Positions 10,102 through 28,795 of a stretch of DNA of 64,000 nt are shown here, piece by piece. A program made the position numbers and the translations under genes. Under the pieces are notes generated by a model. It was not told the DNA's origin. It worked only from the letters and a program-made list of their open reading frames with translations, and did no database searches. The DNA is from Phycisphaerales bacterium (lineage in GTDB: Bacteria; Planctomycetota; Phycisphaerae; Phycisphaerales; SM1A02). The stretch's first letter is position 1. Each line of letters begins with the position of its first letter. Location: positions 469,239 to 533,238 of the forward strand of contig JAKVBT010000005.1 of the NCBI GenBank assembly GCA_022446905.1. The letters run 5' to 3'.

Positions 10102-11464
10102 TCAGATTTCGAGCAATGTTTGCGCAGTCATCCAGTGTCTGCTGGCATGCATTGTGTTTGGTGCTGTCAATGTCAACGCTTCTGTCATTGTTCCAGGTGC
10201 GCATGTGCCAACGCTTACCCGTTCGCTGGTAGGACCCGATGATTTACGCTCATTGCGATTGTCGATGGATCTGAATGCGGATCAGTTGCAGTCTGCGCAT
10301 GCTCTATTGGCTCAGCATCAGGAGCAGATGCGGAGACTGCAGGCGGCCTTGCAACAGGCCATCAGCAAGGCTGCTCCAGACGGGGCTGTGGCTGCACAGG
10401 CTCGGCAGGAAGCATTTCAATCGCAGGCGGAGCAGATTCGTGAAGAGATCGAGCGGCGTCGGCAAAGCGGAGAGTTTCAGGGCCGGCCAGAAGCAATCAA
10501 GGAGGCCTTCGAAGAGGCCATGATGGAGGCGCAGCGCGAGATAGATGCTGGGTCTGCTCAGATGGCCCAGTTAGATGGATGGGCTGATGCCTTTCAGCAG
10601 CAGGTTCATGCTTTGGAGGACTTTCAGGTTCAGGTGGAGGAATTGGAGTTGCAGACTCAAGCAGCACTGATACCTCTCGTGGGAGAGTCACAACTCGAAG
10701 CCTTGAATGCGTGGTGGGTTGAACGTGAATTAACTCGGGATTTGCGTCAGGGTCGACTCAGTGGTGAGATGGTGGATGTGCTGCGTCTCTGGGAGAAGCG
10801 CGGGGTGGTTCGAACTCCAGAGATTGAAGAACAGATCAGCTCCTGGCGCGTAGCGCACCTCGATTTCATCCGGACACGACGCCAGTCGCTGTGGGAGGTG
10901 CCCCAGGCGGCGGTGAGGTCGATTCGTCATGACCGCATTGGCACGATGCAGGCGGCGACACATTCCATCATGCAAGCTCGGGCTGACGTGCGTGACAGTC
11001 ATCTTGCATTGGCAGAGTCCCTTGGGCAGACCTTGTCAGATCAGGAACAAGCAGATTGGATGGGGACGGTTCGTCGCCGCATGTACCCGGCGGTGTGGCG
11101 TCAAGATCGCGCGATGCGGGCCATGGCGGCAGCGCTGCAGCGTTCTGATCTGGAGCCTGCCCAGAAGGTCGCCATCGAACAACTGGTCGCCGAACACGAG
11201 GCATGGTGTGATTCGCTCAGAGTCGAGCATGTGCATGCCATCAATGAAGATGAGCCCAAGCAACTAGGCTATCTCGATGTCATGCAGGTGCAGCAGTACC
11301 TCTCTGGTCCTGCGCCCAAGCCTCCAAGTCGGACCAAGATCAAAAGGCTTCAGCAGGCACAGGATCGTGCTGAGCTTGACATCATGCGGTCCTTGATGGA
11401 GCTCTTGACTGAGGCGCAGTGGGCCGAGATTCCCGGGACGGCCACGGATTATGTTCGGGATTGA
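10094..11464 (+). CDS. Secreted helical protein of unknown function (paralogue 2)
   Basis: A 456-residue protein with a signal peptide (hydrophobic segment ending VNA, cleavage near 29). The mature part is Gln/Ala/Glu/Arg-rich and helical, with a coiled-coil-like stretch at about residues 55-190. It overlaps the previous gene by 8 bases and shares its length, composition and C-terminal pattern, so translational coupling and a shared role are likely. A 'DLNADQLQSAHALL' opening recalls the Spy/CpxP-type helical periplasmic proteins, but the resemblance is too weak for a family call. It is convergent with rlmN and overlaps it by 16 bases. Confidence 0.75.
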   Translation: MSNQISSNVCAVIQCLLACIVFGAVNVNASVIVPGAHVPTLTRSLVGPDDLRSLRLSMDLNADQLQSAHALLAQHQEQMRRLQAALQQAISKAAPDGAVAAQARQEAFQSQAEQIREEIERRRQSGEFQGRPEAIKEAFEEAMMEAQREIDAGSAQMAQLDGWADAFQQQVHALEDFQVQVEELELQTQAALIPLVGESQLEALNAWWVERELTRDLRQGRLSGEMVDVLRLWEKRGVVRTPEIEEQISSWRVAHLDFIRTRRQSLWEVPQAAVRSIRHDRIGTMQAATHSIMQARADVRDSHLALAESLGQTLSDQEQADWMGTVRRRMYPAVWRQDRAMRAMAAALQRSDLEPAQKVAIEQLVAEHEAWCDSLRVEHVHAINEDEPKQLGYLDVMQVQQYLSGPAPKPPSRTKIKRLQQAQDRAELDIMRSLMELLTEAQWAEIPGTATDYVRD

Positions 11465-12453
11465 CCAGCCCCGAGTTGGCCGCATGCTGCCATCACGGTT
11501 CGGCCCATCGTGCGTCGGCGATTGACTGGGAGGCCCGTGTCGCTGATGGATTGAATGAACTGCGACACTGATTCCTCTGCCGGGGCCGGCCAGGGGGAGT
11601 CCTGCTTGGGGTTGTAGGGGATGACATTGATACGACATGGCAGATCGTCAAGCCATTGGGCCAACTCCTCAGCAGCCTCGGGCTGATCATTGACGGTTGG
11701 TATGAGGACATACTCGATGAGAATTGGCCGTCCGCCGGCGTCGATCCAGCCTCGCATCGCTGCATGCAATGCAGTCATGTTCACGCCTCTGGCCATGGGC
11801 ATGATGGTGCGTCGTACTTGCTCATTGGATGCATTGACTGAAACAGCCAAGCGAATTTGATGCATGCCATCCTGCTGCATGAAGCGTGTGAATTTGCGAA
11901 TGCCCCGGGCATGGCCCACTGTCGAGACCCCGATTCGACTTGGGGGGATTGAGGCTCCGTGGTGGTCGACAAATACTTCGATGCTCGAGAGCACTGCTTC
12001 AAGATTGTCCATCGGCTCGCCCATGCCCATGAAGACGATGTTGGAGATCGGGGTGTCGAAATCATGTGTGGCTCGATGCCATTGGGCCACGATCTCAGCA
12101 GCAGATAGATGACGAATGCGACCGAGCGTCGCAGTCTGGCAGAAGGTGCATCCCATGGCACATCCGACCTGGCTTGAGACACAGAGGGTGTTTCGAATGC
12201 GGCCACTTCTGCCCTCGATGGGCATGATGACTGATTCGGTCTCACGGCCGTCAGCATGTTGCAGTAGGAACTTGCGGACCCCGTGCTCATGTTCAACGGC
12301 AACAACCTGCCCGGGAGATGACTCCACTAGACGATGCGCCCCAGCGCGGTGGAAGCCGTGATATACCTCGGCGGCAGCATTGGCTGTGAGGTCCGGATAG
12401 GCGGCCTGAAATCCCTCTAGGGTGTGGCCAAGAAGTGCATTGGCGGGGTACAT
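11449..12453 (-). CDS. rlmN: RlmN-family 23S rRNA/tRNA adenine C2 methyltransferase
   Basis: A radical SAM methyltransferase of the RlmN/Cfr family, acting on A2503 of 23S rRNA and on tRNA in characterised members. The cluster motif CAMGCTFC has cysteines at 98, 102 and 105. The C-terminal AACGQL carries the methyl-accepting cysteine near residue 324. FMGMGEPMDN is the family's SAM-binding segment. At 334 residues it is shorter than E. coli RlmN (384), mainly in the N-terminal domain. An upstream ATG at 12510 would extend it toward the divergent dehydrogenase, but the ATG at 12453 fits better. Cfr-type specificity cannot be excluded. Confidence 0.88.
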   Translation of the reverse strand: MYPANALLGHTLEGFQAAYPDLTANAAAEVYHGFHRAGAHRLVESSPGQVVAVEHEHGVRKFLLQHADGRETESVIMPIEGRSGRIRNTLCVSSQVGCAMGCTFCQTATLGRIRHLSAAEIVAQWHRATHDFDTPISNIVFMGMGEPMDNLEAVLSSIEVFVDHHGASIPPSRIGVSTVGHARGIRKFTRFMQQDGMHQIRLAVSVNASNEQVRRTIMPMARGVNMTALHAAMRGWIDAGGRPILIEYVLIPTVNDQPEAAEELAQWLDDLPCRINVIPYNPKQDSPWPAPAEESVSQFIQSISDTGLPVNRRRTMGRTVMAACGQLGAGQSRT

Positions 12454-12527
12454 CAAGGCCAAGATAGCGTTGATGGTGCAGTACCATGCACGCTTTGGTG
12501 CCAGATGCACCGCGAGGAGTGCGCAAG

Positions 12528-13565
12528 ATGTCCGAACGACGGATATTGATCACCGGAGCGGCAGGAGAGATCGGTCACGGCTTGATTCATGCCCTGAGTG
12601 GGCAGGATGATGTCCGCCTTGTTGCGATGGATCTGCGTGAGATTCCTGAGGCACTCACAGGCAAATTGGAATCGTCGCATCAGGGCGATATCTGTGATCG
12701 GTCCTTTGTTGAACATGTGATGTCGTTGCATCAGATCAATGAAGTAATGCATCTTGCGGCTCTCCTGAGTACCTCAGCCGAGCGCGCTCCCGAGCAGGCT
12801 CACGAAGTCAATGTGCAGGGCACCTTTAATCTTCTGCGTGTTTCAGCTGAGCAGGCCCAGGCCAATGAGGGGTCGGTGCGATTCATCTTTCCCAGCACCA
12901 TTGCCATTTACGGCGTAGACCCACGAGAAAAGGATGAATTGCCGCCCATCCGAGAATTTCAAGCCTTGCGTCCTATCACGATGTATGGGGCGAACAAGTT
13001 GTACTGCGAGGCCATGGGTCGATACTACGGTCGCTACTACCGCTCATTAAGCCGCGGGCAGCGACGGACGCCAATTGATTTCAGATGTGTCCGTTTGCCA
13101 GGGATCATTTCGGCAGAGACGGTGCCAGTTGGAGGTACCAGTGACTATGTGCCGGAGATGATCCACGCCGCTGCGCGTGGGGATGCCTGTACGTGCTTTG
13201 TGCGTCCAGAAACCAGTCTTCCCTGGATGATGATGCCAGAGTGCGTTGATGCCATTTTGCAACTCGCTGAAGCACCAGTGCTGAGCCGATGCGTCTACAA
13301 CATCGCCTCTTTCTCTGCGACCGCAGGCGCATTTGCGGATTCGGTGAGGAAGCACTTCCCTGGCGCTGAGATCTCATTTGAGCCGCATGAAGGCCGGCAG
13401 CGCCTGGTGGATTCATGGCCTGCGGATGTGGACTGCGTCCGAGCGCGGGAGGATTGGGGCTTTGCCGCCAGGTGGACGCTTGAGGAGGCGATGACGGAGT
13501 ACATCCTGCCTGCAATTCGCCGCCGATATGAATCAGCGAGGCCATCGGAAGGAGCAAATTCATGA
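12528..13565 (+). CDS. tdh: L-threonine 3-dehydrogenase, short-chain (epimerase-like) type
   Basis: A 345-residue extended short-chain dehydrogenase with the NAD-binding GAAGEIG at residues 10-16 and a catalytic Tyr-x3-Lys (YGANK) near 152. The fold alone would suggest a sugar epimerase. However, the stop codon overlaps the start of kbl (ATGA), and this pairing is characteristic of the epimerase-like L-threonine dehydrogenase. It would oxidise threonine to 2-amino-3-ketobutyrate. The ATG at 12528 follows GAGGAG with ideal spacing. Identification rests jointly on family and neighbour. Confidence 0.85.
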   Translation: MSERRILITGAAGEIGHGLIHALSGQDDVRLVAMDLREIPEALTGKLESSHQGDICDRSFVEHVMSLHQINEVMHLAALLSTSAERAPEQAHEVNVQGTFNLLRVSAEQAQANEGSVRFIFPSTIAIYGVDPREKDELPPIREFQALRPITMYGANKLYCEAMGRYYGRYYRSLSRGQRRTPIDFRCVRLPGIISAETVPVGGTSDYVPEMIHAAARGDACTCFVRPETSLPWMMMPECVDAILQLAEAPVLSRCVYNIASFSATAGAFADSVRKHFPGAEISFEPHEGRQRLVDSWPADVDCVRAREDWGFAARWTLEEAMTEYILPAIRRRYESARPSEGANS

Positions 13566-14791
13566 CAGCGATCACCAATGCGGGCGCAGCGCGATTTGAG
13601 CAACGAACGCGGCGCACTCTTGATGAGTTGGACACCACTGGGCAGTACAAGCACCTCCAGATGATCGAAGGGCCCATGGGGCCAACGATTGAAATGCGAG
13701 ATCGGGGGCCAGTGGATTGTTTCTGTTCGAACAATTACCTCGGCTTGGCAAATCACCCTGAAGTCGTGCAGGCCGGCATTGATGGGCTAAACAAGTGGGG
13801 GGGCGGCACCGCTTCGGTGCGCTTTATTTGTGGCACATTTTCTGCCCATGAACATCTTGAGAAGCAAATCGCGTCATTTCTGGGGGTAGATGCTTCGTAC
13901 ACATTTGTGTCGTGCTGGACGGCGACGGAGGCATTCTTCCCAACCGTGTGTGAGCCAGGTGATGTGATTGTGAGTGATGCCCTGAACCATGCATGCATCA
14001 TCGATGCCATGCGTTTGACTACGGTCATCAAGAAGGGTGTCCATAAAGCCGTCTATCAGCACTCAGATCTCGACCATTGTCGGGAAGTGCTTGCATCTGC
14101 GCGCGCGCGGGCAGGAGATGATGGTGTCATTTGGCTGGTAACCGATGGCGTCTTCTCGATGGAAGGGGACATTGCAGATCTTCCAGGCCTAAGAGCATTG
14201 TGTGACGAGTTTGGTGCCATGTTGGTGGTCGATGATTCTCATGGCACGGGGGTGATGGGCGCGACTGGGCGCGGGACCCACGAGCATTGGGGAATGGATC
14301 CGGCCAGTATCGACTTTTTCACCGGCACTTTGGGGAAAGCGCTTGGTGGTGCTGCAGGGGGGTATCTCGCTGGCTCGCGTACGGGCATGGACATGGTGGT
14401 GCAGCGCGCACGACCAACACTTTTTAGCAATGCCCTGCCTGCGACAGTGGCTGCATCGGCAGCCAAGGCGATTGAAGTGTTGGATCGCGAGCCAGAGCGA
14501 GTCTCTCGACTTCGTGACAACACCACCAAGGCCCGTGATGGCATCCGCGATGCTGGGTTTGAAGTGCTTGAATCACCTACCGCGATCTGTCCCATCATTG
14601 TGCATGACACCGCGCGAGCCATCGCCATGAGCCAGCGCTTGCTAGAGATGGGCTCCTTCGCCATCGGGTTTGGATACCCAGTAGTCCCGGAGGGTGAGGC
14701 TCGCATTCGAGTGCAGATCAGCGCCGCTCACACAGATGCGCACATCGATCGGCTCGTTGAGAATTTGAGGCGACTGAAGGCTGAGGCTTGA
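13562..14791 (+). CDS. kbl: 2-amino-3-ketobutyrate CoA ligase (glycine C-acetyltransferase)
   Basis: A PLP enzyme of the alpha-oxoamine synthase family, 409 residues. Lys259 in TGTLGKALGG is the PLP lysine and DDSHGTGV near 225 is the cofactor-binding stretch. The C-terminal GYPVVPEGEARIRVQ block matches Kbl rather than BioF. With the coupled dehydrogenase upstream it completes threonine breakdown: 2-amino-3-ketobutyrate plus CoA gives glycine and acetyl-CoA. AAGGAG precedes the ATG at good spacing. No transcription terminator is evident after it. Confidence 0.93.
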   Translation: MTAITNAGAARFEQRTRRTLDELDTTGQYKHLQMIEGPMGPTIEMRDRGPVDCFCSNNYLGLANHPEVVQAGIDGLNKWGGGTASVRFICGTFSAHEHLEKQIASFLGVDASYTFVSCWTATEAFFPTVCEPGDVIVSDALNHACIIDAMRLTTVIKKGVHKAVYQHSDLDHCREVLASARARAGDDGVIWLVTDGVFSMEGDIADLPGLRALCDEFGAMLVVDDSHGTGVMGATGRGTHEHWGMDPASIDFFTGTLGKALGGAAGGYLAGSRTGMDMVVQRARPTLFSNALPATVAASAAKAIEVLDREPERVSRLRDNTTKARDGIRDAGFEVLESPTAICPIIVHDTARAIAMSQRLLEMGSFAIGFGYPVVPEGEARIRVQISAAHTDAHIDRLVENLRRLKAEA

Positions 14792-14855
14792 AATTCTAGG
14801 CCTCTAGTGCTTGTCGCGTGCTCGAAAGATTTGGTGATTTGAGCATGTTCGGCTC

Positions 14856-15680
14856 CTAGTTCCGCCGGCCATTGCTGATGACTGCTTGGCACCGATCCAG
14901 TTCAAGAGTGTTCTTCCAGTAGCCATCCTTCTTGAGATCGCTTCCGATGATGCCACCGTCTGCGATGTCCAGCACGGAGCGGACTGTGGCTTCAGAGATG
15001 CCGCTGCCAACAAAGATCGGAAGATTGCAGGCATCTTTGGCTGCCTGAACATCGCTGAGATCGGTGGATTGCCCGGTGGCATCGCCTGTCACGATCAGCG
15101 CATCGGCACCCATGAACTCGGCTCCATGAGCCCAGTCAGCCATGGATAGGTCAGCAGTAATCGCATGGCTGCTGTGCTTTTTGCGTATATCTGCAAATAC
15201 TGCGATGTGCTCTGCGTTGATGGTTCGTCGATAACGCAGCAGGGGCCCGGCATCCGCAGTGAGCATGGCACCTTCGTCAGCGATGCTTGTGAAACAAAAT
15301 CCTTCTGCTCGAATAAACTGCGCGCCCGATGCGTGTGCGACAGCTAGCGCATCTCGATTAGCACCAGCTAGGATCTGCACACCAAGCGGCAGATCGACCG
15401 CCTGTCTGACAGCGGATGTGACTGCGGTCATGCAAGCCACAATCTCCGGGCCAACTGAACGAAGCAGGTAGGGGGTGTCATGCATATTTTCAAGCAGCAC
15501 GGCATCAAATCCAGCCTCAGCAAGTATGCGTGCTTGTCGCACGGATTCGCTGATGATGCTTGCGGGATCAGTGTCGTATGCGACAGTGCCCGGTAGCGCT
15601 GGCACATGCACCATGCCAATCAGTATGTCTTTTGTGCGACCGAAAATGGTCTCGAGATCCTGGCGCATCCGTGGGCTCAC
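14856..15680 (-). CDS. BtpA/SgcQ family TIM-barrel protein
   Basis: A 274-residue protein of the BtpA/SgcQ family. IGMVHVPALPG near the N-terminus, the LLENMHDTPY block, GVQILAGANRDAL and the FVGSGISEATV segment near the end are the family's beta-strand motifs. BtpA was described in cyanobacterial photosystem I biogenesis and SgcQ is a putative nucleosidase, so the reaction here is unknown. Nothing nearby is photosynthetic. Its ATG overlaps the stop of the S9 peptidase gene (ATGA), so translation is probably coupled to it. Confidence 0.88.
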   Translation of the reverse strand: MSPRMRQDLETIFGRTKDILIGMVHVPALPGTVAYDTDPASIISESVRQARILAEAGFDAVLLENMHDTPYLLRSVGPEIVACMTAVTSAVRQAVDLPLGVQILAGANRDALAVAHASGAQFIRAEGFCFTSIADEGAMLTADAGPLLRYRRTINAEHIAVFADIRKKHSSHAITADLSMADWAHGAEFMGADALIVTGDATGQSTDLSDVQAAKDACNLPIFVGSGISEATVRSVLDIADGGIIGSDLKKDGYWKNTLELDRCQAVISNGRRN

Positions 15681-17698
15681 TTTGATCCGATGTACTTATG
15701 TAGCCAATTCAGAATCTCATGCAAGCGGTGAATTCGCAGGTCTCGGGGCCCACCGCGGCTGAATCCATGGCTGGTTGATTCTGGGTAGCGGACAAATCGC
15801 GATGGGATGTTGCGAATCTGCAGCGCGGCCCACACTTGTTCTGCTTGCTCGACATTGCAGCGGAGATCACCTTCTGAGTGAATCACCAGCGTAGGTGTCT
15901 TCCATTTGTTTGCAAGCCGAATCGGGCTGCACTTCCAAAGGTGTTCGGGTTGGTCCCAGGCATTGCCCGGGAAGTACGAGTCGGGCTTTGAAAGAAAGTC
16001 ACTATTGCCTTCCATGCTGACCAAATTCGAAACGCAGCGGTCGGTGATAGCGCAGGCAAACTCGTTGGTGTGTCCCATGGCCCAGTTGGTCATATAGCCA
16101 CCATAGGAGCCACCCATGATCGCCATGCGGCTGGGGTCAACTTCGGGGCGTTCACGCATCCATTCAATCACAGCTTGAATGTCCACCCAGTCGGCGGTTC
16201 CCCAATCTCCACGAATCGCAGAGCAATGATCACGGCCGTAGCCTTTGGAGCCGCGTGGATTGGAATACACCACCACCATGCCTTTGGCAGCTTGGCATTG
16301 GAATTCGTGGAAGAAGGAGTACCCGTATTGAGCGTGTGGGCCGCCGTGAATCTGCAAGACACTGGGGCGACGTCGTGGATTCTTGGTGTTTGGCGGCGTC
16401 ATCATCCACACCTGTACACGATTGCCATCTTTGGATGTGATCCAAAATGACTTGGGCTTGGCAAGGGCTCGGGTTCTTTTGAATGCGGCATTCTCATTGC
16501 TCAGTCGAGTCGGCGATGCCCCGGTTGTGAGATCCATGACATGTACTTCAGGCGGAGATGCTGGCGTGTCAATCATCATCGTCAGCCAGCGTCCGTCGGC
16601 TGACTGGTTGCCAGGGTCATGAATGGCTCGGCCTGATGTGAGTGCTTCAGGCGTACCCCCACGTCGGTGGAAGCGATAGATCTGCTGGCATCCTTCGATG
16701 CCAATTCGTGCCAGTACTGCTTTGCTGTCATGGGTCCACTGAATTGATGCCTCGAAAGACACTTCAGCGGTGTCGCCAAGCGTCGCCGCCATCAGGCACA
16801 GGTCAGTCTTGGATGAGAGTGAGCGTGCCGAGCCCTTCTTGGCTGGTTTGCAGATCCACAATTCAAGGTTTTCAGTCGAGTAGGTGCCATCGGTGCCTTC
16901 TCGCCCCGACCACGCCAGCCACTGTCCATCTGGTGACCAGGTGACCATGTGTTTGGGGCCTTGGGGAAGCCAATCGAGCAGTCGATTGCGCCCGGAACCG
17001 ACATCCAGGAGTCGAACCTCCGTGCGGTGCCAGTCGAGAAAGGCGCGTTTGCCACGTGTGGTCGTGAGGGCAAGTGTGCGTCCATCGGGGGACCAGTCGT
17101 ATGAGAAAAACCCAACGCCATCTTTGTTCCAAAGGGTGCGTGTGCGACCAGTGGCGACGTCAACCACCATTAAGACAAAGCGTCGCTGGAGGAAGTAGCC
17201 GTCTCCATCAAGGCGGTACCAGCCGGTGGTGACCACACGTGGTGGTGTGCTCGCGCCGGATTCCTCACGTGCCTTGACGGCCTCTTTGGTCCATTCGGGA
17301 TCTGCTGCTCGCCAGGAAAATGCAATCTGTGTTCCATCCGGAGACCATTTGAATTGCGACAGTGTGCCTTCCGGCAGTGTGGTTAGATTGCGTGATTCGC
17401 CGCCATCGGCAGGCAGCAGTCGGATCTGTGGTTGGCCTTTCTCTCGGTCAGAAATAAAAGCAATCTGACTTCCGTCGGGCGACCATCGCCCATGGCGATC
17501 GCGATTTCCATTGGTCACGGATCGTCCACGGCCGCCATCGGTTGGGATCATCCAGAGATTGGTGGCATTGGTGTTGTTGGCCCCCGCGGTCCGCTGAACA
17601 TAGAGCACCTGTCGTCCGTCCGGAGAGATCCGGGGTTGTGACGGCACAATGATTGATTCAAGATCTTCAGGTGTCACTGGGCCTTTCCGAGTAGGCAT
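15677..17698 (-). CDS. S9 family prolyl oligopeptidase-type peptidase
   Basis: The 673-residue product has two parts. Residues 1-400 are WD40/TolB-like beta-propeller repeats carrying the recurrent 'SPDG' motif. The C-terminal alpha/beta hydrolase has GGSYGG with the nucleophile serine near 530, the catalytic Asp in EGDLRC near 611 and His in TSHGF near 643. It resembles acylaminoacyl or dipeptidyl peptidases. No signal peptide is seen, so it is probably cytoplasmic. The ATG at 17698 follows AAGGAAG, which decides against a longer frame reaching into the divergent M20 gene. Confidence 0.9.
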   Translation of the reverse strand: MPTRKGPVTPEDLESIIVPSQPRISPDGRQVLYVQRTAGANNTNATNLWMIPTDGGRGRSVTNGNRDRHGRWSPDGSQIAFISDREKGQPQIRLLPADGGESRNLTTLPEGTLSQFKWSPDGTQIAFSWRAADPEWTKEAVKAREESGASTPPRVVTTGWYRLDGDGYFLQRRFVLMVVDVATGRTRTLWNKDGVGFFSYDWSPDGRTLALTTTRGKRAFLDWHRTEVRLLDVGSGRNRLLDWLPQGPKHMVTWSPDGQWLAWSGREGTDGTYSTENLELWICKPAKKGSARSLSSKTDLCLMAATLGDTAEVSFEASIQWTHDSKAVLARIGIEGCQQIYRFHRRGGTPEALTSGRAIHDPGNQSADGRWLTMMIDTPASPPEVHVMDLTTGASPTRLSNENAAFKRTRALAKPKSFWITSKDGNRVQVWMMTPPNTKNPRRRPSVLQIHGGPHAQYGYSFFHEFQCQAAKGMVVVYSNPRGSKGYGRDHCSAIRGDWGTADWVDIQAVIEWMRERPEVDPSRMAIMGGSYGGYMTNWAMGHTNEFACAITDRCVSNLVSMEGNSDFLSKPDSYFPGNAWDQPEHLWKCSPIRLANKWKTPTLVIHSEGDLRCNVEQAEQVWAALQIRNIPSRFVRYPESTSHGFSRGGPRDLRIHRLHEILNWLHKYIGSK

Positions 17699-17774
17699 GA
17701 TCGCTTCCTTCCAGATGAGCGGGATCGGGGTGGAGATGGACCGACGCCTGACTCCAAGGGAGTATGCTGCGCCG

Positions 17775-18938
17775 ATGCCCGAACAGCCTACCGGACTGGC
17801 CGATGATCGATCACTGCTGGAGACCTTGATCGCGATCGACACCACTTCAGGTCAGCCGTGCAATCCCGCCCTGGATGTGATCTGCAACCGATTGGAGGAT
17901 GCGGGCTGTCGCATTGAACGGGTCGCAGGGCCAGCAGATGGTCGTGACAACTTGGTGGCAGTTGCTGGCCCCGTCGATGCTGGCGGTGGTCTGAGCCTGT
18001 CGGGTCATATTGACTGTGTGCCAGCAGGCCAGGGGTGGTCCAGTGATCCGTTCACCTTGACCGAACGTGATGCTTGCTGGTTTGGGCGAGGCAGTTGCGA
18101 TATGAAGGGCTTTGTGGCCCTGGCGACCAACCTGCTTTGTGAGGCCACGGACTTGTGCCATCCTCTGGCGATGATTCTGACCAGTGACGAAGAACTTGGC
18201 TCGGTTGGAGCGGCGTCGCTGTTGCAATCAGCAAATCAACTTCCGCCATTGCCCACGAGCTGTGTAGTGGGGGAGCCAACCTCTCTGTCGGTCGTTCGCA
18301 TGCATAAAGGGCATCTGAAGTTCACGATCCGTGTGCATGGGAAAACAGGGCATACAGGCACACCTGCCAGTGGGCTCAGTGCCATTGATGGGGTGCGCCA
18401 CGTTCTGGCAGCGCTAGATGAAGCACGATTACAACTTGAGGCCGTGCGTACTGCAACTTCTTCTGCATTTGCGACTGTGCCCTCTCCTGTGCTCAGCGCC
18501 GTGCGTCTGAATGCTGGCCATGCATGGAATGTCATTCCTGATGAGGCCACGGTTGATTGTGGCTTGCGTGTCCTTCCTGATCAAGATGCGGGGGCGGTGC
18601 TTGCTCAAGTGCGTCAGGTAGTAGAAACAGCAATGGGCAATTGGTCGGGCACCTGGGCCTTGGAAATCTTCAATGACAACCCGCCCATGTGCACGCAGCG
18701 AGATGCGGATATTGATCGGTCTTGTCGGGCGTTGGTGGGGCAGACCGATGACATCGGGGTCTCGTACTGCAGCGATGGTGGGCATCTTGGGCGGCTTGGG
18801 CTGGACTGTGTGCTCTTTGGGCCAGGGGATATCGCCCGTGCGCACCGTCCTGACGAGTATGTGCCAATCCAGGAGATGGCAGCGGCTCGCACGCACCTGA
18901 AGACGCTGATCGATGCGATGTGTGGAGGGGGATCATGA
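17775..18938 (+). CDS. M20 metallo-amidohydrolase, ArgE-like; possibly acts with HutF
   Basis: A 387-residue M20 family enzyme with complete metal ligands: His78 and Asp80 (GHIDC), Asp109 (CDMKGF), Glu139-Glu140 (SDEEL), a Glu in VGEPTS near 167 and a late His near 356 (RAHRPDEY). By sequence it is closest to acetylornithine deacetylase (ArgE). Its stop overlaps the start of hutF (ATGA), and no arginine genes are nearby. It may instead deacylate N-formylglutamate made by HutF. The family is certain; the substrate is open. Confidence 0.85.
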   Translation: MPEQPTGLADDRSLLETLIAIDTTSGQPCNPALDVICNRLEDAGCRIERVAGPADGRDNLVAVAGPVDAGGGLSLSGHIDCVPAGQGWSSDPFTLTERDACWFGRGSCDMKGFVALATNLLCEATDLCHPLAMILTSDEELGSVGAASLLQSANQLPPLPTSCVVGEPTSLSVVRMHKGHLKFTIRVHGKTGHTGTPASGLSAIDGVRHVLAALDEARLQLEAVRTATSSAFATVPSPVLSAVRLNAGHAWNVIPDEATVDCGLRVLPDQDAGAVLAQVRQVVETAMGNWSGTWALEIFNDNPPMCTQRDADIDRSCRALVGQTDDIGVSYCSDGGHLGRLGLDCVLFGPGDIARAHRPDEYVPIQEMAAARTHLKTLIDAMCGGGS

Positions 18939-20194
18939 CGGATCTCATTCGTCCTGCATTGGCCTGGGTTGATGGGGCCTTTCGCCCAGGCATGGAGATT
19001 GAAGTTGCTGGCGACACCATTGCGGCTGTTCGCAAGACTGATGCTGCAGTGGAGGAGCCAGGTGTGGCCGTACTGCCCGGTTTTGTCAATGCGCATAGCC
19101 ATGCCTTCCAGCGTGGTTTGCGGGGGTGTGGCGAGGTGTTCTCAGGCCTGGAGGATGATTTCTGGTCGTGGCGTGAGGCCATGTACGCTCTGGTAGACCG
19201 TTTGACCCCAGAAACGACGTACCAACTCAGTCTGCAGGCTTTCCGTGAGATGAAAGCAGCGGGCGTCACCAGTGTGGGCGAGTTTCACTATGTGCATCAT
19301 TCGGATGCTGGGCTCGACTTTGCGCTGGATGAAGCAGTGCTCTGTGCCGCTGATGAGGCTGGTATCCGCATTGTGTTACTGCATGCCTGTTATCTGACGG
19401 GGGGCTTTGGGTCGCCACTGGCTGGAGCGCAGCGGCGATTTGATGGGGGGTCCCAGGCAATCTGGTGGGAAGCATTTGATCGGGCAACTGCAGCCTGCCG
19501 CAGCCCGCGTCAGTCAACTGGCGTTGTTATCCACTCACTTCGCGCAGTGTCGATCGATGATGCAGCGGAGATCTGCCAAGAGGCAAGGCAGCGTGGTCTG
19601 GTCATCCACCTGCATTTGGAAGAGCAGCCAGCGGAAATTGAGGCATGTATCGCAGCTCATGGCTGCCGTCCGATGGAACTGGTCTTGGATCGCCTTGATC
19701 CCGGTCCGGATATGACTGCGGTGCATTGCACCCATACACATGCAGACGACATGCGACGATATGCGCAGACCGGTGCGCATGTATGTTTGTGCCCGTTGAC
19801 GGAAGCCAACCTCGGCGATGGCATTGCGGATATCACTGGGATGCGCACAAGTGGGGCGTCGTTGTGCCTTGGCACGGACTCCAACGCTCGCATCTCCATG
19901 CTCGAGGAAATGCGTTGGTGCGAGTATGGTCAGCGACTCAGAGATGGCCGGCGTGGTGCTTGTACAGATGGCAGTGGTCGTGTTGATGGTCCGCTCATGG
20001 ACATGGCTACCATCGGCGGGGCGAATTCCTTGGGGCTTTCTGCAGGGGTGCTTGCCCCTGGTGCTTTGGCAGACCTTGTGAAGGTTGACTTGGGCCACGC
20101 TTCTCTTGAGGGGGTTGATGCAGAAGGGCTTGCGGCGGCCTTGATCACAGGTGCAGATGCGCCTTTCCTGACCGAACGCTCAGCGGTGGGCTGA
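18935..20194 (+). CDS. hutF: Formimidoylglutamate deiminase HutF
   Basis: A 419-residue amidohydrolase. The metal motif NAHSHAFQRG lies near residues 52-61, the DDFWSWREAMY segment just after it, and CPLTEANLGDG and GTDSNARIS late in the protein. These are HutF signatures. The enzyme converts N-formimidoyl-L-glutamate to N-formyl-L-glutamate in the five-step histidine degradation route. The rest of that route (hutH, hutU, hutI, hutG) is not in the window. Translation is coupled to the M20 gene upstream. The gene converges on an amino acid permease. Confidence 0.9.
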   Translation: MTDLIRPALAWVDGAFRPGMEIEVAGDTIAAVRKTDAAVEEPGVAVLPGFVNAHSHAFQRGLRGCGEVFSGLEDDFWSWREAMYALVDRLTPETTYQLSLQAFREMKAAGVTSVGEFHYVHHSDAGLDFALDEAVLCAADEAGIRIVLLHACYLTGGFGSPLAGAQRRFDGGSQAIWWEAFDRATAACRSPRQSTGVVIHSLRAVSIDDAAEICQEARQRGLVIHLHLEEQPAEIEACIAAHGCRPMELVLDRLDPGPDMTAVHCTHTHADDMRRYAQTGAHVCLCPLTEANLGDGIADITGMRTSGASLCLGTDSNARISMLEEMRWCEYGQRLRDGRRGACTDGSGRVDGPLMDMATIGGANSLGLSAGVLAPGALADLVKVDLGHASLEGVDAEGLAAALITGADAPFLTERSAVG

Positions 20195-20199
20195 TCACA

Positions 20200-21564
20200 T
20201 CAATTGATTTCACTTGGTGGGAGTTCTGTCTTCCAATGCAGCACTGGGCGGCATGCCAAAATGACCACGAGTGTCAGTCCGCTGTAGATCGCTGTGATTG
20301 GCGCTGCGATGGTGGCTGAGATTGCCAGCCAAGTGGAGAGGGCCAGGAATACCACTACTGGTATCGGGTACAGCGGCATAGACCAGATGACCCGTTTGAG
20401 CCGCCGACGGCGGATCAGTACGGCTGCGCCTGACATGGCGCTGCAAATCGTAATCAGCAAGCCGATGTATTCCAGAAGGCTGCCAAGCGTGGGCAGCCAA
20501 AGAAATGGAAAGCACAAGATCATTTGCATGGTGATGGCCCGTGCGGGAACACTGCGGCTGCTTTGCTGGGAAAGTGAGCGGGGAAGCTGACCGTATGTTG
20601 CCATGGCCATGATGACGCGGCCGCCGGCAAAGATCATCGTGCTCAGCGTGGAGATCAAGACGGCGATGATGCCAAAGGTCATCAGTTGTCCGATGGTTGG
20701 TCCAAAGAGGATGTGCGCAGCTTCGCTTCCAATATTGGCCATGGGCTCGCCATTGGCATCGACCATGTTGGCAGGATCAATGGCATGGATGAATGCAAGG
20801 TTGACAAGAACATAGAGCGTTGTCACCACAGCGATGCTTCCAAGAATGGCCAGCGGTAGATTGCGTTGTGGTTTTTTGATTTCACCAGCAACGTCGGCGG
20901 CAGCACCCCAGCCCAGGTAGGCAAAGGAAATGGCGACCACGGCAGCTCCCATGACAGCGGACCAGGGGGCGGGGGTAGCGGTGTTTAGTTGGGTCGAAGT
21001 GCTCGCTGGCTCGACGGCCATGAACAGGCCCGCGACTGCAAAGATCAGTAGCAAGATGATCTTCAGGGCAGACATGAGATCATTGAGCCGGGCGCCAGCG
21101 TGTAGCCATCGCGCATGAACCAGTGTCAGTAGTACGACGATGCTTGTTGCCACGATGACGGGATGGCACCATGGGATGATCGGCTGGAGATAGGCAGCGA
21201 TGACCCCTGCGATATAGGCGTTGGCAGCGACATAGCCAACCAGCACTGTGACGGTGCCATTGAGAAACCCCATGGCAGGCCCCATGGTTTCGCATGCTGC
21301 GACATACAGCGCCCCGCGTTCTGGTCGCTGGGCGGCTAGTTCCGCCACCGTAAGTGCGCCAGCCAGTGCCAAAAGCCCGCCAAAGACCCAGGCAAGGATG
21401 AGATTGGTGCCTGATCCAAGGCTCGGCCCCCAGAGCCCTGTGATGGAGAAGATGCCTGATCCAATCATGCAGGCAGCACAGATCCCCAATGCAGAGGCAG
21501 CGGAAAGATGCCTCGATGGTGGTCGAGGTGTTGATTCTGGTGTTGTCGGTATGGACGTCGCCAT
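20200..21564 (-). CDS. APC superfamily amino acid permease
   Basis: A 454-residue membrane protein with about 12 hydrophobic segments. The first helix carries GSGIFSITG, the substrate-binding unwound helix of amino acid-polyamine-organocation transporters, and WAFGGLLAL-like and GWGAAADVAGEIKKPQR segments follow. It ends 5 bases from the stop of hutF on the opposite strand. Transport of histidine or a related amino acid would fit that neighbour but is only inference. No operon partner is apparent; about 220 bases separate it from the next gene. Confidence 0.88.
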   Translation of the reverse strand: MATSIPTTPESTPRPPSRHLSAASALGICAACMIGSGIFSITGLWGPSLGSGTNLILAWVFGGLLALAGALTVAELAAQRPERGALYVAACETMGPAMGFLNGTVTVLVGYVAANAYIAGVIAAYLQPIIPWCHPVIVATSIVVLLTLVHARWLHAGARLNDLMSALKIILLLIFAVAGLFMAVEPASTSTQLNTATPAPWSAVMGAAVVAISFAYLGWGAAADVAGEIKKPQRNLPLAILGSIAVVTTLYVLVNLAFIHAIDPANMVDANGEPMANIGSEAAHILFGPTIGQLMTFGIIAVLISTLSTMIFAGGRVIMAMATYGQLPRSLSQQSSRSVPARAITMQMILCFPFLWLPTLGSLLEYIGLLITICSAMSGAAVLIRRRRLKRVIWSMPLYPIPVVVFLALSTWLAISATIAAPITAIYSGLTLVVILACRPVLHWKTELPPSEIN

Positions 21565-21786: not shown

Positions 21787-24453
21787 TCACTCTGTGATGC
21801 AGTAGTTGACGCCGAATGCTTCGGCAAGCCAACCAGTGCTGTCGTTGATCGCAGAAGTACCTGCGTCAGCCGACATCCACAGGAACCAGCATGAACCCTG
21901 GTTCGGATCGTTGGAGTAAGCAGCCAGTGCACCCGTGCTACCAGCATAGCCAACCGCTGTCGTCCAACTGCTCAGGGGGTAAATCCCTGCATAGGACAAG
22001 TTGGTTGTGCCATAGGTGGTAGACGAAGAACTCGCCAACTCGTTGTAGGAGGAGTCCATGGCAGCCATGCTGACATCCATGTCGCCAGCATCAGCGCAGG
22101 CGCTCCAACCACCGCTATAGACCAAAGCCAGACCGTAAACGGTGGCTTCACTCACACTTGGAGCAGACACGTCTGCTGCACGGGTGTAGGTACCCGCAGC
22201 ACCAACTGGACCGTTTGAGGTACCAGCTGTCCAAGCGCCGTCCACACCCGTTGGTGCTTCGCCATTGCCTGTGTTGCAGGAGACATCCTGCGGGCAATCG
22301 ACATCAGCACAGAGGGTGTTGGCGTACCAAAGGCCACCAAAGCCAGCACAGTCTGCAGCGGTGAGGTTGTCACCGATGCAGTCGCCAGCAACACAGCAGG
22401 CACCAGTTGCGCCAGCACCTGTGAAGGTGATCGTGCAGGTACCTGGGCCAGTAGCAGCATTCCATCCGCCGATTCGGACGTAGATGGTGCTGCCGCCTGT
22501 GACAGGCAGGTCATAAACGCCGGAGTAGTAACTCTGGCATCCACTCTCGACAGTGCTGTCACCATTGCAGGCGATCTGAGTCAAGCTGCCACAATCAGCA
22601 CCTTCATAGAGCACCAAGGAGGTGTCATAGGAGGCGCTGTCGCACAGGCTGACACTCAGGGTGCCATCGCCTTGGACCATGTAGTAGCCCCAGACGTCAG
22701 GGCTGCCTCCCCAGTCAAGGTACGTACCTTCGCACTGGGTGTCATCCGGCTCACCAAAGCCACTGTCTTGGGCATCGGTGGTGTCGAATGGATTGGCGCC
22801 GTCAACGAACTCAGAAGCTGTATCGCAGGTGTCATTGCCGGCACCGCACTCAGTAGTGTTGCAATCTGTGCCGTTGCCCTGGAACTCGCCACCGAAGTCA
22901 GCGCAGTCCGCGGGATACAGGTCATCAAGGCAGTCATCGCCAGCGAGGCAGCATGCGCCTGGTTCTGGAGCCACGCAGCTTACGCTGAGGACACCAGTGC
23001 CAGTTGCACCTTCGCCGAATGAACCGAGGCGGATGTAGGCCATCTCACCAGCAGCCATATCAACAGCAAGCTCTGAGGAGAGGCCGTTATTGGCACCACC
23101 ACAGTCATCATTGCAAGCAACGATTTCGCCACCGCAGGAAGCGTACACAGCCAGGCGGCTGTCGAAGTCGACCGTATCACAGGTCGAAATCGTGACGGTT
23201 CCGTCGCAGGAAGCTGTGTAGACATACCAGATGTCGTTGTAGACCTGCTCTTCGCCGAAGTTATCACACGCGGTGAAGTCGGCAGGACCATCCGTGTAAG
23301 CGGACGTATTGTCGACACCAGTATCACCGTCGCCGATGGCGATCGCGTTTTCGCAGGTGTCATTGTCCGGAGCAACCGCACAAGCGACGTCTGCACACAA
23401 GACATCTTGACCCTGGAATGCGCCACCGCAATCAGGCTCATAGACGTATACGCAGGAGCCGTCTGGGAGACAGCAGGCACCATTGACACATGAAGCGCAG
23501 GAGGAGCCATCGCCGAGCCATTCGCCCGTGCAATCGTCTTCCTTCACAGTTTCTTGACATCCGTCAAGACCGAAGCAGCATGCGCCAACTGGGAGGCAGT
23601 CGCCGCCGAAGTTGGCAATGACCTCAAGAAGGTCATCGACCGTGACAGCGCAGTCGCCTGTGGGCAGGGGGTAGCAGTCGCCGAGGGGGCGGCTCAAACC
23701 ATCACCCACTTGGCCGAACGAGCCGATGACGCCAAGGACGTCGTCGACGTTGGTCAGGCCATCAGGGACGCCAGCAGGTCCAGTGATGTCAGTGTTGCAA
23801 CTGGCATCCAGTGGTACATCGCAAGGATCGCCTGTGCCACCCATCACGCGGTACGCGAGGTTGTATGCCAACTGTTGGTAGGGGCCAAAGCCGAATCCAC
23901 CATTTGGGTTGCACTGATAGGAGAGGCCGTCGCCGTCATAGGAGATGGCAGCACCAGTCTGACCATTTACGCCGAACTCATTCGTTGGAATCACGGAGAC
24001 CCATTGAAGGCCAGCAGCGATGGGCCATCCGCCAGCAGATGACGACATGCCAATCAGGTCATAACCAGCGAATACAAAGTCGGGGTCAGCGCTGATCGGA
24101 CCAGGCAGAGTCTCTGACAGATAGCCTGTGAGATCTGTGCCGGCTTCGGTGTAATCATTGTAGAAGTTAGTGGTTAGAGCTGAGATGCCGTCGATTCCGG
24201 CGTAGCCATTCCAGCCACCGACGACCATCGCCGAACTCATAGCCTGAGAACCACTGGCGTTATCGAAATCATCGACACAACCGATGTCATAGACGCTAAA
24301 TGCGGCCTCAAAGATCTGGTTCGCAACGATATTGCTGGTGTCGATGGAAGAGCCGTCATCCAGACCAATTTGGTCCATCAGGACGATTCCACCGCCAGCC
24401 GTCGCTGCGCCAGCGAGGCCAAAGATACAAAGGCAAGTAGGAATTGTTTTCAT
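21787..24453 (-). CDS. Large secreted Cys-rich protein with dockerin-like and GACC modules
   Basis: An 888-residue exported protein with a signal peptide (cleavage near residue 18). After an N-terminal domain of about 200 residues come two dockerin-like repeats near 216-290 (NVDDVLGVIGSFG and VTVDDLLEVIANFG), then Cys modules starting GACC. Two repeats opening NDTC follow (about 365-500 and 540-690), resembling bacterial pre-peptidase C-terminal beta domains. After these come another GACC module and a C-terminal domain of unknown type. It is acidic and poor in Lys and Arg, as expected for a marine extracellular protein. There is no membrane anchor or sorting tail. Function is unknown; cell-surface or matrix attachment is likely. 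Confidence 0.85.
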   Translation of the reverse strand: MKTIPTCLCIFGLAGAATAGGGIVLMDQIGLDDGSSIDTSNIVANQIFEAAFSVYDIGCVDDFDNASGSQAMSSAMVVGGWNGYAGIDGISALTTNFYNDYTEAGTDLTGYLSETLPGPISADPDFVFAGYDLIGMSSSAGGWPIAAGLQWVSVIPTNEFGVNGQTGAAISYDGDGLSYQCNPNGGFGFGPYQQLAYNLAYRVMGGTGDPCDVPLDASCNTDITGPAGVPDGLTNVDDVLGVIGSFGQVGDGLSRPLGDCYPLPTGDCAVTVDDLLEVIANFGGDCLPVGACCFGLDGCQETVKEDDCTGEWLGDGSSCASCVNGACCLPDGSCVYVYEPDCGGAFQGQDVLCADVACAVAPDNDTCENAIAIGDGDTGVDNTSAYTDGPADFTACDNFGEEQVYNDIWYVYTASCDGTVTISTCDTVDFDSRLAVYASCGGEIVACNDDCGGANNGLSSELAVDMAAGEMAYIRLGSFGEGATGTGVLSVSCVAPEPGACCLAGDDCLDDLYPADCADFGGEFQGNGTDCNTTECGAGNDTCDTASEFVDGANPFDTTDAQDSGFGEPDDTQCEGTYLDWGGSPDVWGYYMVQGDGTLSVSLCDSASYDTSLVLYEGADCGSLTQIACNGDSTVESGCQSYYSGVYDLPVTGGSTIYVRIGGWNAATGPGTCTITFTGAGATGACCVAGDCIGDNLTAADCAGFGGLWYANTLCADVDCPQDVSCNTGNGEAPTGVDGAWTAGTSNGPVGAAGTYTRAADVSAPSVSEATVYGLALVYSGGWSACADAGDMDVSMAAMDSSYNELASSSSTTYGTTNLSYAGIYPLSSWTTAVGYAGSTGALAAYSNDPNQGSCWFLWMSADAGTSAINDSTGWLAEAFGVNYCITE

Positions 24454-24489
24454 TTCTTAGATTCCCCTCCAGGGAGGTTTCCTGCCTCC
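24451..24489 (-). promoter_or_regulatory. Possible hairpin switch around the ribosome binding site
   Basis: Upstream of the ATG the minus strand reads GGAGG (24489-24485), CCTCC (24477-24473) and GGAGG (24470-24466), the last being the ribosome binding site. The middle element could pair with either GGAGG. One pairing leaves the binding site free and the other hides part of it. This is a structural possibility seen by eye, not a known riboswitch class. Confidence 0.25.
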
Positions 24490-24817
24490 AGCAACGGGCC
24501 AGAGACACTCTCAAATTAAAGGGTGGTTGAACACCCACGCACCGCCCAACCGCGGACGACGCGGAAAGGCACACACACTTATGCAGCAGTTCCGGTGATG
24601 TACCGGGACTCCTTCTCGTCAGCCATTGCCCCACAACGGCTGCAACTCTCTTCACCGCTGGTACGGGATAACCTGCGGCCCCTCTAATGTGGTCGGCAAG
24701 CAGGGGTATGTCAAGGACTTGTCTGCGTGTTCGGGGGGGGTTTGGGAGGTTTTTTTGTCTTGTAGCAGAATGTGGGATAGCCCTTATTTGGCTCTAATCG
24801 GGGGTGCCCCCCAATCA
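24490..24817. other. Long non-coding stretch between the two large secreted protein genes
   Basis: Together with its flanks, about 450 bases here carry no credible gene. The part nearest 24453 probably holds the promoter and a long leader of the 888-residue protein gene. It includes a small hairpin with a 5-base stem (24592-24596 with 24602-24606) and GC-rich short repeats around 24550-24565. No sequence matching a riboswitch class known to me was found. Confidence 0.5.
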
Positions 24818-24849
24818 CAGAAGCCCAGCCGGTCTGGGCTGGGCTTCTG
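24818..24849 (-). terminator. Hairpin, probable terminator of the 1042-residue protein gene
   Basis: A perfect 13-base inverted repeat (CAGAAGCCCAGCC at 24818-24830, its complement at 24837-24849) with a 6-base loop. It lies 54 bases after the stop codon of the minus-strand gene, the same distance as the strong terminator after the neighbouring secreted protein. No U-run follows, so termination may be weak or the hairpin may protect the RNA end. Confidence 0.55.
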
Positions 24850-24902
24850 CATGTATGAGGCTCGAGTATGTGGCCAAGAGGCCCCTTGGTGATTACAGGG
24901 CA

Positions 24903-27900
24903 CTAGGGGGCAATGGTCTGGCCATCATTGGACTGTCCGGGGTTGGCCAGGTCCGTCAAGGTCGTCCAAGTAAAGGCCGCTGGATCGGCTCCTGAGCCAC
25001 TCAGGCCCAGAGAACTGAACTCATTGGTCCCACTGCTCTCCGAGACGCCCACATCTTCCGAACTGAGGCCCACAGCAGGCCCAGCGGTGGCGGTGAGTGA
25101 TCCCTCGTAGGAGATGAAGTGAGCCACACTGCCGCCAATGGTCAGGCAGAAGCCATCCGGGGCACCATTTTGAATGCCTTCATGGAGCACTGAGTAGATG
25201 GTGTAGCCCGCCCCAGCCTCACCAGCGGTCAGATCACCACCTGCATAGGAGGCATAGACGGTGCCGTTGCTGCCGTTGTAGAGCGAGAGCTCGACGTTGG
25301 CGATGTCCACTCCATCAAGGATGACGATCTCAATGAACTCATTGAGGTCACTGCCACCATTGTCGTAGTGGAATTCGTTAATCCAGCCACCGCCAACAGT
25401 CTGCTCACACTCATCTGGAATGCCATTGCCATTCTCGTCAATGCTTGTGCCATCAGCGAGGTCGCAGACATCGCCGATGCCGTTCTCATTGCAGTCAGCC
25501 TGATCTTCGTTTGGAAGATCGCAGTTGTCATAGTCGTCAGGCACTCCATCGCCGTCGCTGTCAGGCAATTGTCCGCCTCCACAGTCACCACCAAAGGACA
25601 CGCCGTCAATGCGGGTGCCTGGTGAGAACAGTGCCCCATCGGGGGCGACCGTCGAGTGGTCGGCCCAGTCGGTGCCAAATACATCGGGGTTGCGGGTGAT
25701 CGACTGGTTATTGCCAGCGGAACCATAGGCTTCCTCGAGTTGAATGGTGCCATTGGCATCTCGAATGGTGATGGTGTCACCACCATTGTTCAGGCCCATG
25801 TAGCCAGACGAGGCCGTCATCACAATTGCGCCACCAAAGTCACCGGCGGGCTCTCCGCCACCAAAGACCACAACCGCGCATCCATCACCAACGATGGTGC
25901 CGAATGGGAAGGTATGGCGATCAGCGGTGGCATCACTCATGACCCAGCCACTCATGTCGATGTCGGCGCCACTCATGTTGACCAGTTCGAAGAACTCATC
26001 ATCAGCATAGTTGGCGACACCGTCACCATTGGCATCGCCAAGGGTTGAGTCTGGGTCTGCGTTGATTTCGTTAATGACAAAGACGAGCCCTTCGCACTCA
26101 TCAGGCACACCGTTGCCATCCGAGTCCTCACTTGTGCCGTCGGCGATGTCACACACGTCTGGGACGTTGTTGCCATTGCAGTCAGGGTCACATTCGTCAG
26201 GATTGCCGTTGCCGTCACAATCCTCGCTGTTGCCATTGTCGACATCGCAGTCATCGGGCGATCCGTTGCCATTGCAATCAGCTTCGCATTCGTCCGGGAT
26301 GCCATTGCTATTGCAGTCTGCTGAAAGTCCATCTGCAATCGCGCAGGCATCGCCTACGCCATCGGAATCACAGTCTTGCTGATCTGGGTTGGCCAGATCT
26401 GGGCAGTTGTCGACGATGTCGTAAACGCCATCGCCATCCGAGTCGCTTGTGTCGCAGTTGTTCTCATCGCCTGGCGTATCGAGGATCGAAAGTTCAAAGG
26501 TTCCAACGAGCCAGTCGACGTCACAGAGGTAGGCATGGCCTGGCGTATAGATGCCGTCAGGGCCGACCTGGACGTCGCAATACACGGGGTCGCCTGAAGC
26601 CGGATCTGGTCCAACAAAGGCGACGCAGTCGATGATGCTGTCCCATGGTTCAATGTCGAGAACGCCGTCGTCATCGGTGTCCAGATCATCGCCAAACATG
26701 CCGGTAAAGCCGGAAACGAGCAGGAAAGTCGTTTGGTCATTGCTCTCGAAGTTGAGCTCATAGGCGTAATCTGGCACGGCGATTGTCATCGTCGGCTCAC
26801 CGATTACGAAGAACCCAGCGGCATTGATTGACAGTCCATCCAGTGCGACGGCCTCTTCAATAGCGCCGACACCGGTCGCGCTTCCATCGCCAATGACGAT
26901 GAAGGCCAGTCCATCGAGCGATTCGCCAGGGGTACCGACAAACTCGACGTACTCATTGTCATCTGTTCCAGGCTCATTCAGGCGTGTTTCGTTAATCATC
27001 ACGCCGGAGGTTGCGCACTGGCTGCAGTCGGTGTTGTCGCCCTGATAAGAGCCGCCAGCGTTGTCACAGTCATCAGATGTGACGATCTCGCATTGCCCAT
27101 TTGTGAGACAACAAGCGCCAGTCTCGATCGGGGCGCACTCGGTGCCGAAGGCGGCAATCACGGTTAGAAGGTCATCAACTGTGACCTGGCAATCGCCAGT
27201 GGGCATTGGGTCGCAGTCACCGGTAGGCCGGAAGGTTCCGTCGCCAGTGACACCAAAGTTCGCAATCACAGCTAGGACGTCATTGACATCGACCTGCTGA
27301 TCGAGTTCTTCTCCAGGGCCGGCGATATCAGCAACGCACTCTGGAAGGAGCTCGTCACAAGGATCGCCAGTGCCTGCGAGCATGAATTCAGCAGCCTCTA
27401 CATAGGCAACGGATGGGAATCCGATGCTGCCTGTGGTGGTCCAGTCTGGGATATTGCAATCACCGTTGATTGTGCGGAGATAACTCGGCGTTGATTCGCC
27501 TGCGTTGTTGGCGCCAATGATTAGATCACCACTGCTCGATGGCGTTTCGAGTTCGATAAAGATCAGGCTCGTCGTGAGCGAGTCCCATTCAATTTCTGGT
27601 ACGAAGTTGAAGGTCACCATCATTGGATCCGATGTTGCTGGGATCTCCTGTGTGGCGGAGCCCAATTCGACCAGATCTCCTGTGGAACTTCCCGGGACAC
27701 GATCGCCATCGATGTCGAGGTAGACCCGAACGACGGCAGTATGCGCTTCATCGCTTTTCTCAATTCCCCAGTGCACGCAGGTCAACGCAACATCACCGCT
27801 GAGATTGAGTTCAGCCACATCATGAGAACGCCCATAGGCGTGGGCGAAGGTGCCGCCTCCTTGGCATGCAACGGAACCACCAGGCAGAATGGTGTTCGGG

Positions 27901-28656: not shown

Positions 28657-28744
28657 CTGGCACTCTGAACTGTGACGCAGCCCAACCCACGTGCTGGAAC
28701 AAAGTGTCAGCATCAGTGGGTCCAGGCACGCGTCTGGCGTGTCG

Positions 28745-28759
28745 GACATCCGGGATGTC
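28745..28759. promoter_or_regulatory. Perfect 7-1-7 palindrome upstream of the ArsR-type gene
   Basis: GACATCC-G-GGATGTC lies about 90 bases upstream of the regulator's start and downstream of the tRNA-Leu gene. ArsR-family repressors often bind such inverted repeats in their own promoter, so an autoregulatory operator is possible. No second copy was noticed. Confidence 0.3.
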
Positions 28760-28795
28760 ATCGATACGCGCTGCGGCCGATGTTGTTCACATCCC

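Follow-up and report, generated by a model that had tools for sequence, protein, structure and literature searches.

An ArgE-like M20 deacylase encoded in overlap with hutF as a candidate N-formylglutamate deformylase in place of HutG

Results

An ArgE-like M20 gene overlaps hutF

The window, i.e. the whole analysed stretch of 64,000 nucleotides from a Phycisphaerales bacterium, contains an M20 deacylase gene and, directly downstream on the same strand, hutF. The encoded proteins are called P0001 and P0002 (Table 1). The M20 reading frame ends in ...GGATCATGA, and its TGA at 18936-18938 shares bases with the hutF ATG starting at 18935, giving an overlap of 4 bases. The initial annotation had placed the stop of an ArgE-like gene over the hutF start; the ATGA shared at 18935-18938 bears this out, coordinates included. 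The overlap suggests that both genes are translationally coupled.

Table 1. Features of the window at and around the M20-hutF pair.
Feature	Position	Strand	Remarks
M20 (ArgE-like) deacylase gene, protein P0001	17775..18938	+	387 aa; proposed N-formyl-L-glutamate deformylase replacing HutG
hutF, formimidoylglutamate deiminase, protein P0002	18935..20194	+	419 aa; NF006681 415.3 bits
ATGA overlap, M20 stop / hutF start	18935..18938	+	putative translational coupling
APC-family amino acid permease gene	20200..21564	-	end 5 bases past hutF, opposite strand
Two long ORFs	21787..28031	-	repeated cysteine-rich stretches and dockerin-like Asp-rich segments (by eye)
Gene block	11449..17749		radical SAM (RlmN-like by eye), D-erythronate dehydrogenase-like, glycine C-acetyltransferase-like, BtpA-family and S9 peptidase genes

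P0002 passes the cut-off of the formimidoylglutamate deiminase model NF006681 (362 bits) and stays under that of TIGR02022 (383.0 bits vs. 413.05). Its best solved relative is 3mdu, the Pseudomonas N-formimino-L-glutamate iminohydrolase, whose HSHAFQR, FWSWRE, EFHYVHH and HSLRAV stretches are retained with at most one change apiece. The sole Pfam matches of P0001 are PF01546 and PF07687 (M20 catalytic and dimerisation domains), both over cut-off; there was no match to PF05013, the HutG family. Judged by its sequence, the M20 protein is ArgE-like: NCBI acetylornithine deacetylase models are its best family matches, and with 294.2 bits it falls 3.5 bits short of the cut-off of the equivalog TIGR01892 (297.7). 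Two members of the same clade (see below), L009 with 308.8 and L022 with 340.1 bits, do pass this model.

Family searches were carried out for seven neighbours of the pair (20200-21564, 15677-17749, 14856-15680, 13562-14791, 12486-13565, 11449-12510 and 28153-28761). None of these seven is a hut or arginine gene, in agreement with the earlier remark that no hutG or arginine genes lie nearby, and PF05013, ArgJ and ArgC had no match genome-wide either (see below). The gene block upstream of the pair is partly retained around it in close relatives.

Histidine breakdown and arginine genes in the own genome

The genome that holds the window is a draft of 2.58 Mb in 79 contigs with a completeness of 96.3%. 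It encodes one HutH and one HutU as well as HutI and HutF. The hutH, hutU and hutI genes are packed together with a type I methionine aminopeptidase gene in one orientation (L083:4998-10340); this contig also carries the M20-hutF pair, some 160 kb away.

FtcD, a fused glutamate formimidoyltransferase/cyclohydrolase, is the other known consumer of formiminoglutamate and bypasses N-formylglutamate. It had no match in a genome-wide search and was thus ruled out as the consumer in this genome; the check for such consumers comprised HutF and FtcD. The initial annotation had asked for a hutG elsewhere in the genome. A genome-wide search with PF05013 returned no match in the 96.3% complete draft. Since HutH, HutU, HutI and HutF are present while HutG is without a match, the step that lacks a known enzyme is the deformylation.

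For arginine biosynthesis we searched the genome for ArgC and ArgJ, and neither gave a match. In absence of ArgC no N-acetylornithine is expected, such that an ArgE would have no substrate. With respect to a second argE, the other gene to be looked for, P0001 was the sole match to its own sequence at E <= 1e-3. The genome holds five further PF01546 members, and the two that were read look M20D-like by eye; the lack of ArgC and ArgJ matches removes the basis for an ArgE role.

Conservation of the pair

We scanned GTDB contigs with P0001 and kept the best 80 of 492 relatives as loci. Among these best 80, HutF directly follows the M20 gene on the same strand in 14, all within the top 24 (L003-L026), and was not found in the available flanks of L027-L082. 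The nearest named relative within this set is L003 from Phycisphaerales with 68% identity. A second sample comprised 392 genomes of the window's phylum, 32 of which have a HutF at E <= 1e-50 (13 of them over the model cut-off). Directly upstream of HutF, six of the 32 carry a P0001-type M20 (G000, G376, G041, G306, G070, G365) and 11 a second, distant M20 with 27-31% identity. Canonical HutG adjoins HutF in four (G411, G257, G135, G099). Neither M20 type nor canonical HutG was seen beside HutF in the remaining 11, a number that includes some HutF genes near a contig end and from which a divergent M20 could have escaped tblastn with P0001.

Together, the ArgE-like M20-HutF pair was found at 19 distinct loci including the window, in Planctomycetota and Acidobacteriota, where G306 and L026 are counted as one locus and likewise L026 and L187, whose contigs agree in length (166,107) and in the match. 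The conservation of the pair, which the initial annotation had left to be checked, is thus given across two phyla. Of the 18 loci besides the window, 15 offer a start codon that provides the 4-base overlap. Because of this and because 19 distinct loci carry the pair, the coupling of the M20 gene to hutF is more than chance.

Inherited synteny was considered as the sole cause of this conservation. Of the 18 other loci, 12 (L003-L008, L185, L010-L013, L189) share with the window the S9 peptidase neighbour or more, and here the pair may have been passed on together with the flanking genes. The remaining six (L015, L018, L023, L026, L186, L188) show none of six tested window neighbours in the available DNA, which is short for some of them (7.2 kb for L018), and the pair persists. 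In a genome of the same family, G408 (L182, L244), HutF adjoins the S9 peptidase gene with no M20 in between, and an M20 relative lies on another contig.

HutG, ArgC, ArgJ and FtcD in pair-bearing genomes

Gene content was searched for 28 loci (L003-L030) of the best 80 of the 492 relatives. This covered 15 pair-bearing genomes, namely the own genome, G001-G006, G008-G011, G013, G016, G021 and G024. Urocanase (HutU) is encoded in all 15. PF05013 had no match in 14 of them, the exception being G021 with a best score of 85.9 bits; for scale, the HutG of G028 reaches 249 bits. ArgJ was found in none of the 15 and ArgC over cut-off in two (G013, G021), with weak matches of 40 bits in G001 and 20 bits in G009. 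The FtcD search, which covered 42 genomes, returned nothing for these 15; among pair-bearing genomes of the second sample it found none in G376, G365 and G306, one in G070 and a match under cut-off in G041.

These data also bear on the idea that HutF and the M20 enzyme form a two-step module for another N-substituted glutamate, e.g. N-guanidino- or N-carbamoyl-glutamate, outside histidine breakdown. The M20-family model NF058540 is indeed named N-carbamyl-L-glutamate amidohydrolase ErtE (an actinobacterial protein matches it under cut-off), and in the own genome hutHUI lies elsewhere on the contig. However, HutH, HutU and HutI of the own genome, like the urocanase of all 15 pair-bearing genomes, need a sink for formiminoglutamate, and P0002 passes the formimidoylglutamate deiminase cut-off. 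We therefore regard such a module as very improbable.

If P0001-type enzymes replace HutG, both should rarely be found together. A P0001 search over 31 genomes gave no match at E <= 1e-20 for G411, G257, G135 and G099, the four that carry HutG next to HutF. The 13 genomes with HutF over cut-off divide into nine with a P0001 match, three with canonical HutG, none with both and one (G383) with neither. When every P0001 match is counted and kinship is left uncorrected, Fisher's test for exclusion yields p = 0.014 for these 13 genomes and 0.005 for 14 with G257 added; counting only members of the P0001 clade, again uncorrected for kinship, gives p = 0.07 in both sets. The matches of G284 and G194, both among the nine, show 34-37% identity, lie outside the P0001 clade and carry Glu instead of Asp at the ArgE position discussed below. 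Further PF05013 proteins are found away from HutF, with 75 to 86 bits in the pair-bearing G021, G070 and G365 and 75 to 137 bits in G070, G365, G284 and G383, and 114 of the 392 sampled genomes show some PF05013 match. The exclusion therefore concerns canonical HutG only, and we consider it as suggestive only.

Phylogeny, pocket residues and predicted structure

A midpoint-rooted tree was built from 73 sequences, from which the duplicates L242, L245, L243, L246, L247 and L187 were left out. P0001 falls into a 32-member clade (support 100/99) to which neither E. coli ArgE nor the proteobacterial sequences belong. Within this clade 19 members are linked to HutF, three to FtcD and ten (including that of G408) lie beside neither. 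The HutF linkage requires at least five changes on the branches of the clade and thus does not represent one frozen locus. For the FtcD-linked members, which come from three planctomycete contigs, the M20 gene lies directly upstream of FtcD (L022:9983-12936, L025:9983-12967, L027:9953-12967); FtcD was identified by a family search for the L022 protein and by likeness to it for L025 and L027.

P0001 retains the metal and catalytic positions of M20 enzymes (H78, D80, D109, E139, E140, E167, H193, H357), their roles being assigned partly by analogy with PMC11511702. According to PMC11270798, H182 and Y330 shrink the ArgE pocket to the size of a small acyl group and were proposed as marks of ArgE. 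Both are present in P0001 as H180 and Y331. In the 19 HutF-linked proteins the first position is always His, and the second is Tyr in 13 and Phe in six. Such a small-acyl pocket suits a formyl and an acetyl group alike. N-formyl groups are also removed by the ArgE of E. coli.

Two other ArgE positions differ. At the position of Glu333, Asp is found in all 32 members of the P0001 clade and in all 11 M20 proteins of the second type; of the 53 proteobacterial relatives (L030-L082, 15 of which entered the tree), 52 carry Glu. At the position of Asp262 all 32 clade members have Gly or Ser, with Gly in P0001. Both changes may matter for the glutamate side chain. Since Asp at the Glu333 position also occurs in L029, just outside the clade, and in distant M20 proteins, it marks a protein as 'not ArgE' and is not confined to the P0001 clade.

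The predicted structure of P0001 has a mean pLDDT of 94.8 and is closest to E. coli ArgE 8uw6_B (Z 43.7, rmsd 3.0, 367 aligned residues, 29% identity); E. coli ArgE is also the closest solved structure by sequence. Such similarity, together with the acetylornithine deacetylase models as best family matches and the missing ArgJ of the own genome, would be in line with a true ArgE of arginine biosynthesis that only accidentally adjoins hutF. The lack of an ArgC match in the own genome and of any ArgC over cut-off in 13 of the 15 pair-bearing genomes, where no N-acetylornithine is to be expected, argues against it, as do the retention of the M20-HutF pair across two phyla, the narrowly missed TIGR01892 cut-off and the replacement of Glu333 by Asp. 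The case for an ArgE role is weak and its probability, in our judgement, very low; with ArgC and ArgJ both lacking a match in the own genome, we rejected it.

A broader specificity has to be weighed as well. The M20 protein could be a general N-acyl-amino-acid deacylase, acting e.g. on N-acetylhistidine, N-acetylglutamate or other scavenged compounds, that is co-expressed with HutF without being a dedicated deformylase. Subfamily M20A includes aminoacylases besides ArgE (PMC11511702), the ArgE pocket residues are retained in P0001, and part of the clade is encoded next to FtcD or at a distance from hut genes. A general deacylase would, however, leave 14 of the 15 searched pair-bearing genomes with no enzyme for the N-formylglutamate step, and it does not account for canonical HutG and P0001-type M20 not co-occurring in the compared HutF genomes. 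We consider it unlikely.

Second and third M20 types beside hutF

The second M20 type forms a clade of its own with 11 members (support 100/99), far from the P0001 clade. In 11 sampled genomes it is encoded immediately ahead of a HutF-like gene (L206:2901-5278, L196:2-2349 and nine further loci), and in six of them a start codon for the 4-base overlap is available. The corresponding HutF-like proteins score 184 to 309 bits against NF006681, under its cut-off of 362, such that their identity as true HutF is unsure. Ten of these genomes, all but G065, for which none is listed, also have PF05013 proteins over the family cut-off at other sites, with best scores of 97 to 154 bits. This makes a replacement of HutG by the second type less plausible.

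A third type was encountered in Nonomuraea gerenzanensis, where a cluster (L263:515-6299) contains hutU, an AllC-like M20 gene and hutF (626 bits). The M20 protein reaches 595 bits against NF006770 (cut-off 372), an annotation family named 'allantoate amidohydrolase', and its gene lies directly upstream of hutF, abutting it if the hutF start is read correctly. A Streptomyces record (L262) contains hutU, hutI and hutF; among its tested ORFs, none next to hutF could be identified as an M20.

One may tentatively go further and imagine that M20 deacylases took over the HutG step at least three separate times, each time directly upstream of hutF: the ArgE-like clade in Planctomycetota and Acidobacteriota, the second clade in other genomes belonging to the phylum of the window, and AllC-like proteins in Actinomycetota. 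Where arginine biosynthesis is lacking, many of the genes annotated as argE would then encode N-formylglutamate deformylases. We regard this wider scenario as possible, though doubtful.

Discussion

The M20 enzyme of the window is probably an N-formyl-L-glutamate deformylase that catalyses the HutG reaction (EC 3.5.1.68) in place of the unrelated PF05013 protein. In the proposed pathway HutH, HutU and HutI would convert histidine to N-formimino-L-glutamate, from which HutF would strip ammonia to give N-formyl-L-glutamate. The presumably co-translated two-metal M20 enzyme would then take off the small N-formyl group and release glutamate and formate. We infer the substrate, the translational coupling and the cellular role of the enzyme from gene context. 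That it may replace HutG had already been suggested in the initial annotation. The suggestion has gained support from the gap in the pathway, the absence of ArgC and ArgJ matches, the conserved pair and the lack of a P0001 match in those four genomes whose HutG adjoins HutF, and overall the genomic case for a replacement of HutG by the P0001 clade is good. Counting against a deformylase are the ArgE marker residues His182/Tyr330 retained in P0001, the position of ten of the 32 clade members away from both HutF and FtcD and of three further ones upstream of FtcD, and the coexistence of the pair with an ArgC over cut-off in G013 and G021.

If a deformylase is indeed encoded, the last gap of histidine breakdown would be filled in Phycisphaerae and some Acidobacteriota. 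HutG would thereby have been replaced by a non-orthologous enzyme of unrelated fold, and automatic argE annotations that imply arginine synthesis where ArgC and ArgJ are not found would be corrected.

A full-text literature search, with few subscription papers in reach, revealed no recognisable report of an ArgE-like M20 in the role of HutG and none of ArgE acting on N-formyl amino acids, nor did it yield anything helpful on ErtE; PMC3223725 was directly relevant. A regulon study of Proteobacteria names, in its accessible part, COG0010 and COG3741 as the only HutG enzymes (PMC5343134). The general idea of an alternative deformylase from COG0624 is already in print for another COG0624 protein. 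It was predicted in a SEED-based study, and that paper reports no deformylase activity for the assayed protein of Streptomyces avermitilis (PMC3223725). From the Arabidopsis counterpart At5g43600 and the Nonomuraea cluster, the tested protein appears to be AllC-like. The negative assay, probably made on another M20 subfamily, is still a real warning for the deformylase assignment.

Compared to known systems, P0001 shares with ArgE (M20A; E. coli 7rsf, 8uw6) the whole-chain fold, the metal and catalytic residues and the His and Tyr of the small-acyl pocket. It differs by Asp for Glu333 and Gly for Asp262, by its overlap with hutF, by a score just under TIGR01892 and by a genome in which ArgC and ArgJ have no match. 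With HutG (N-formylglutamate amidohydrolase, PF05013, COG3741) it has in common the proposed reaction and the slot beside HutF, which HutG occupies in four sampled genomes, whereas the protein families are unrelated and the own genome has no PF05013 match. The COG0624 prediction (PMC3223725) embodies the same idea of a COG0624 protein filling the HutG step, but the Streptomyces avermitilis protein assayed there had no deformylase activity. The AllC-like M20 of Nonomuraea (NF006770, L263) resembles P0001 as an M20 hydrolase encoded directly upstream of hutF, with hutU nearby, but belongs to the hydantoinase/carbamoylase subfamily of M20 and not to the ArgE-like proteins.
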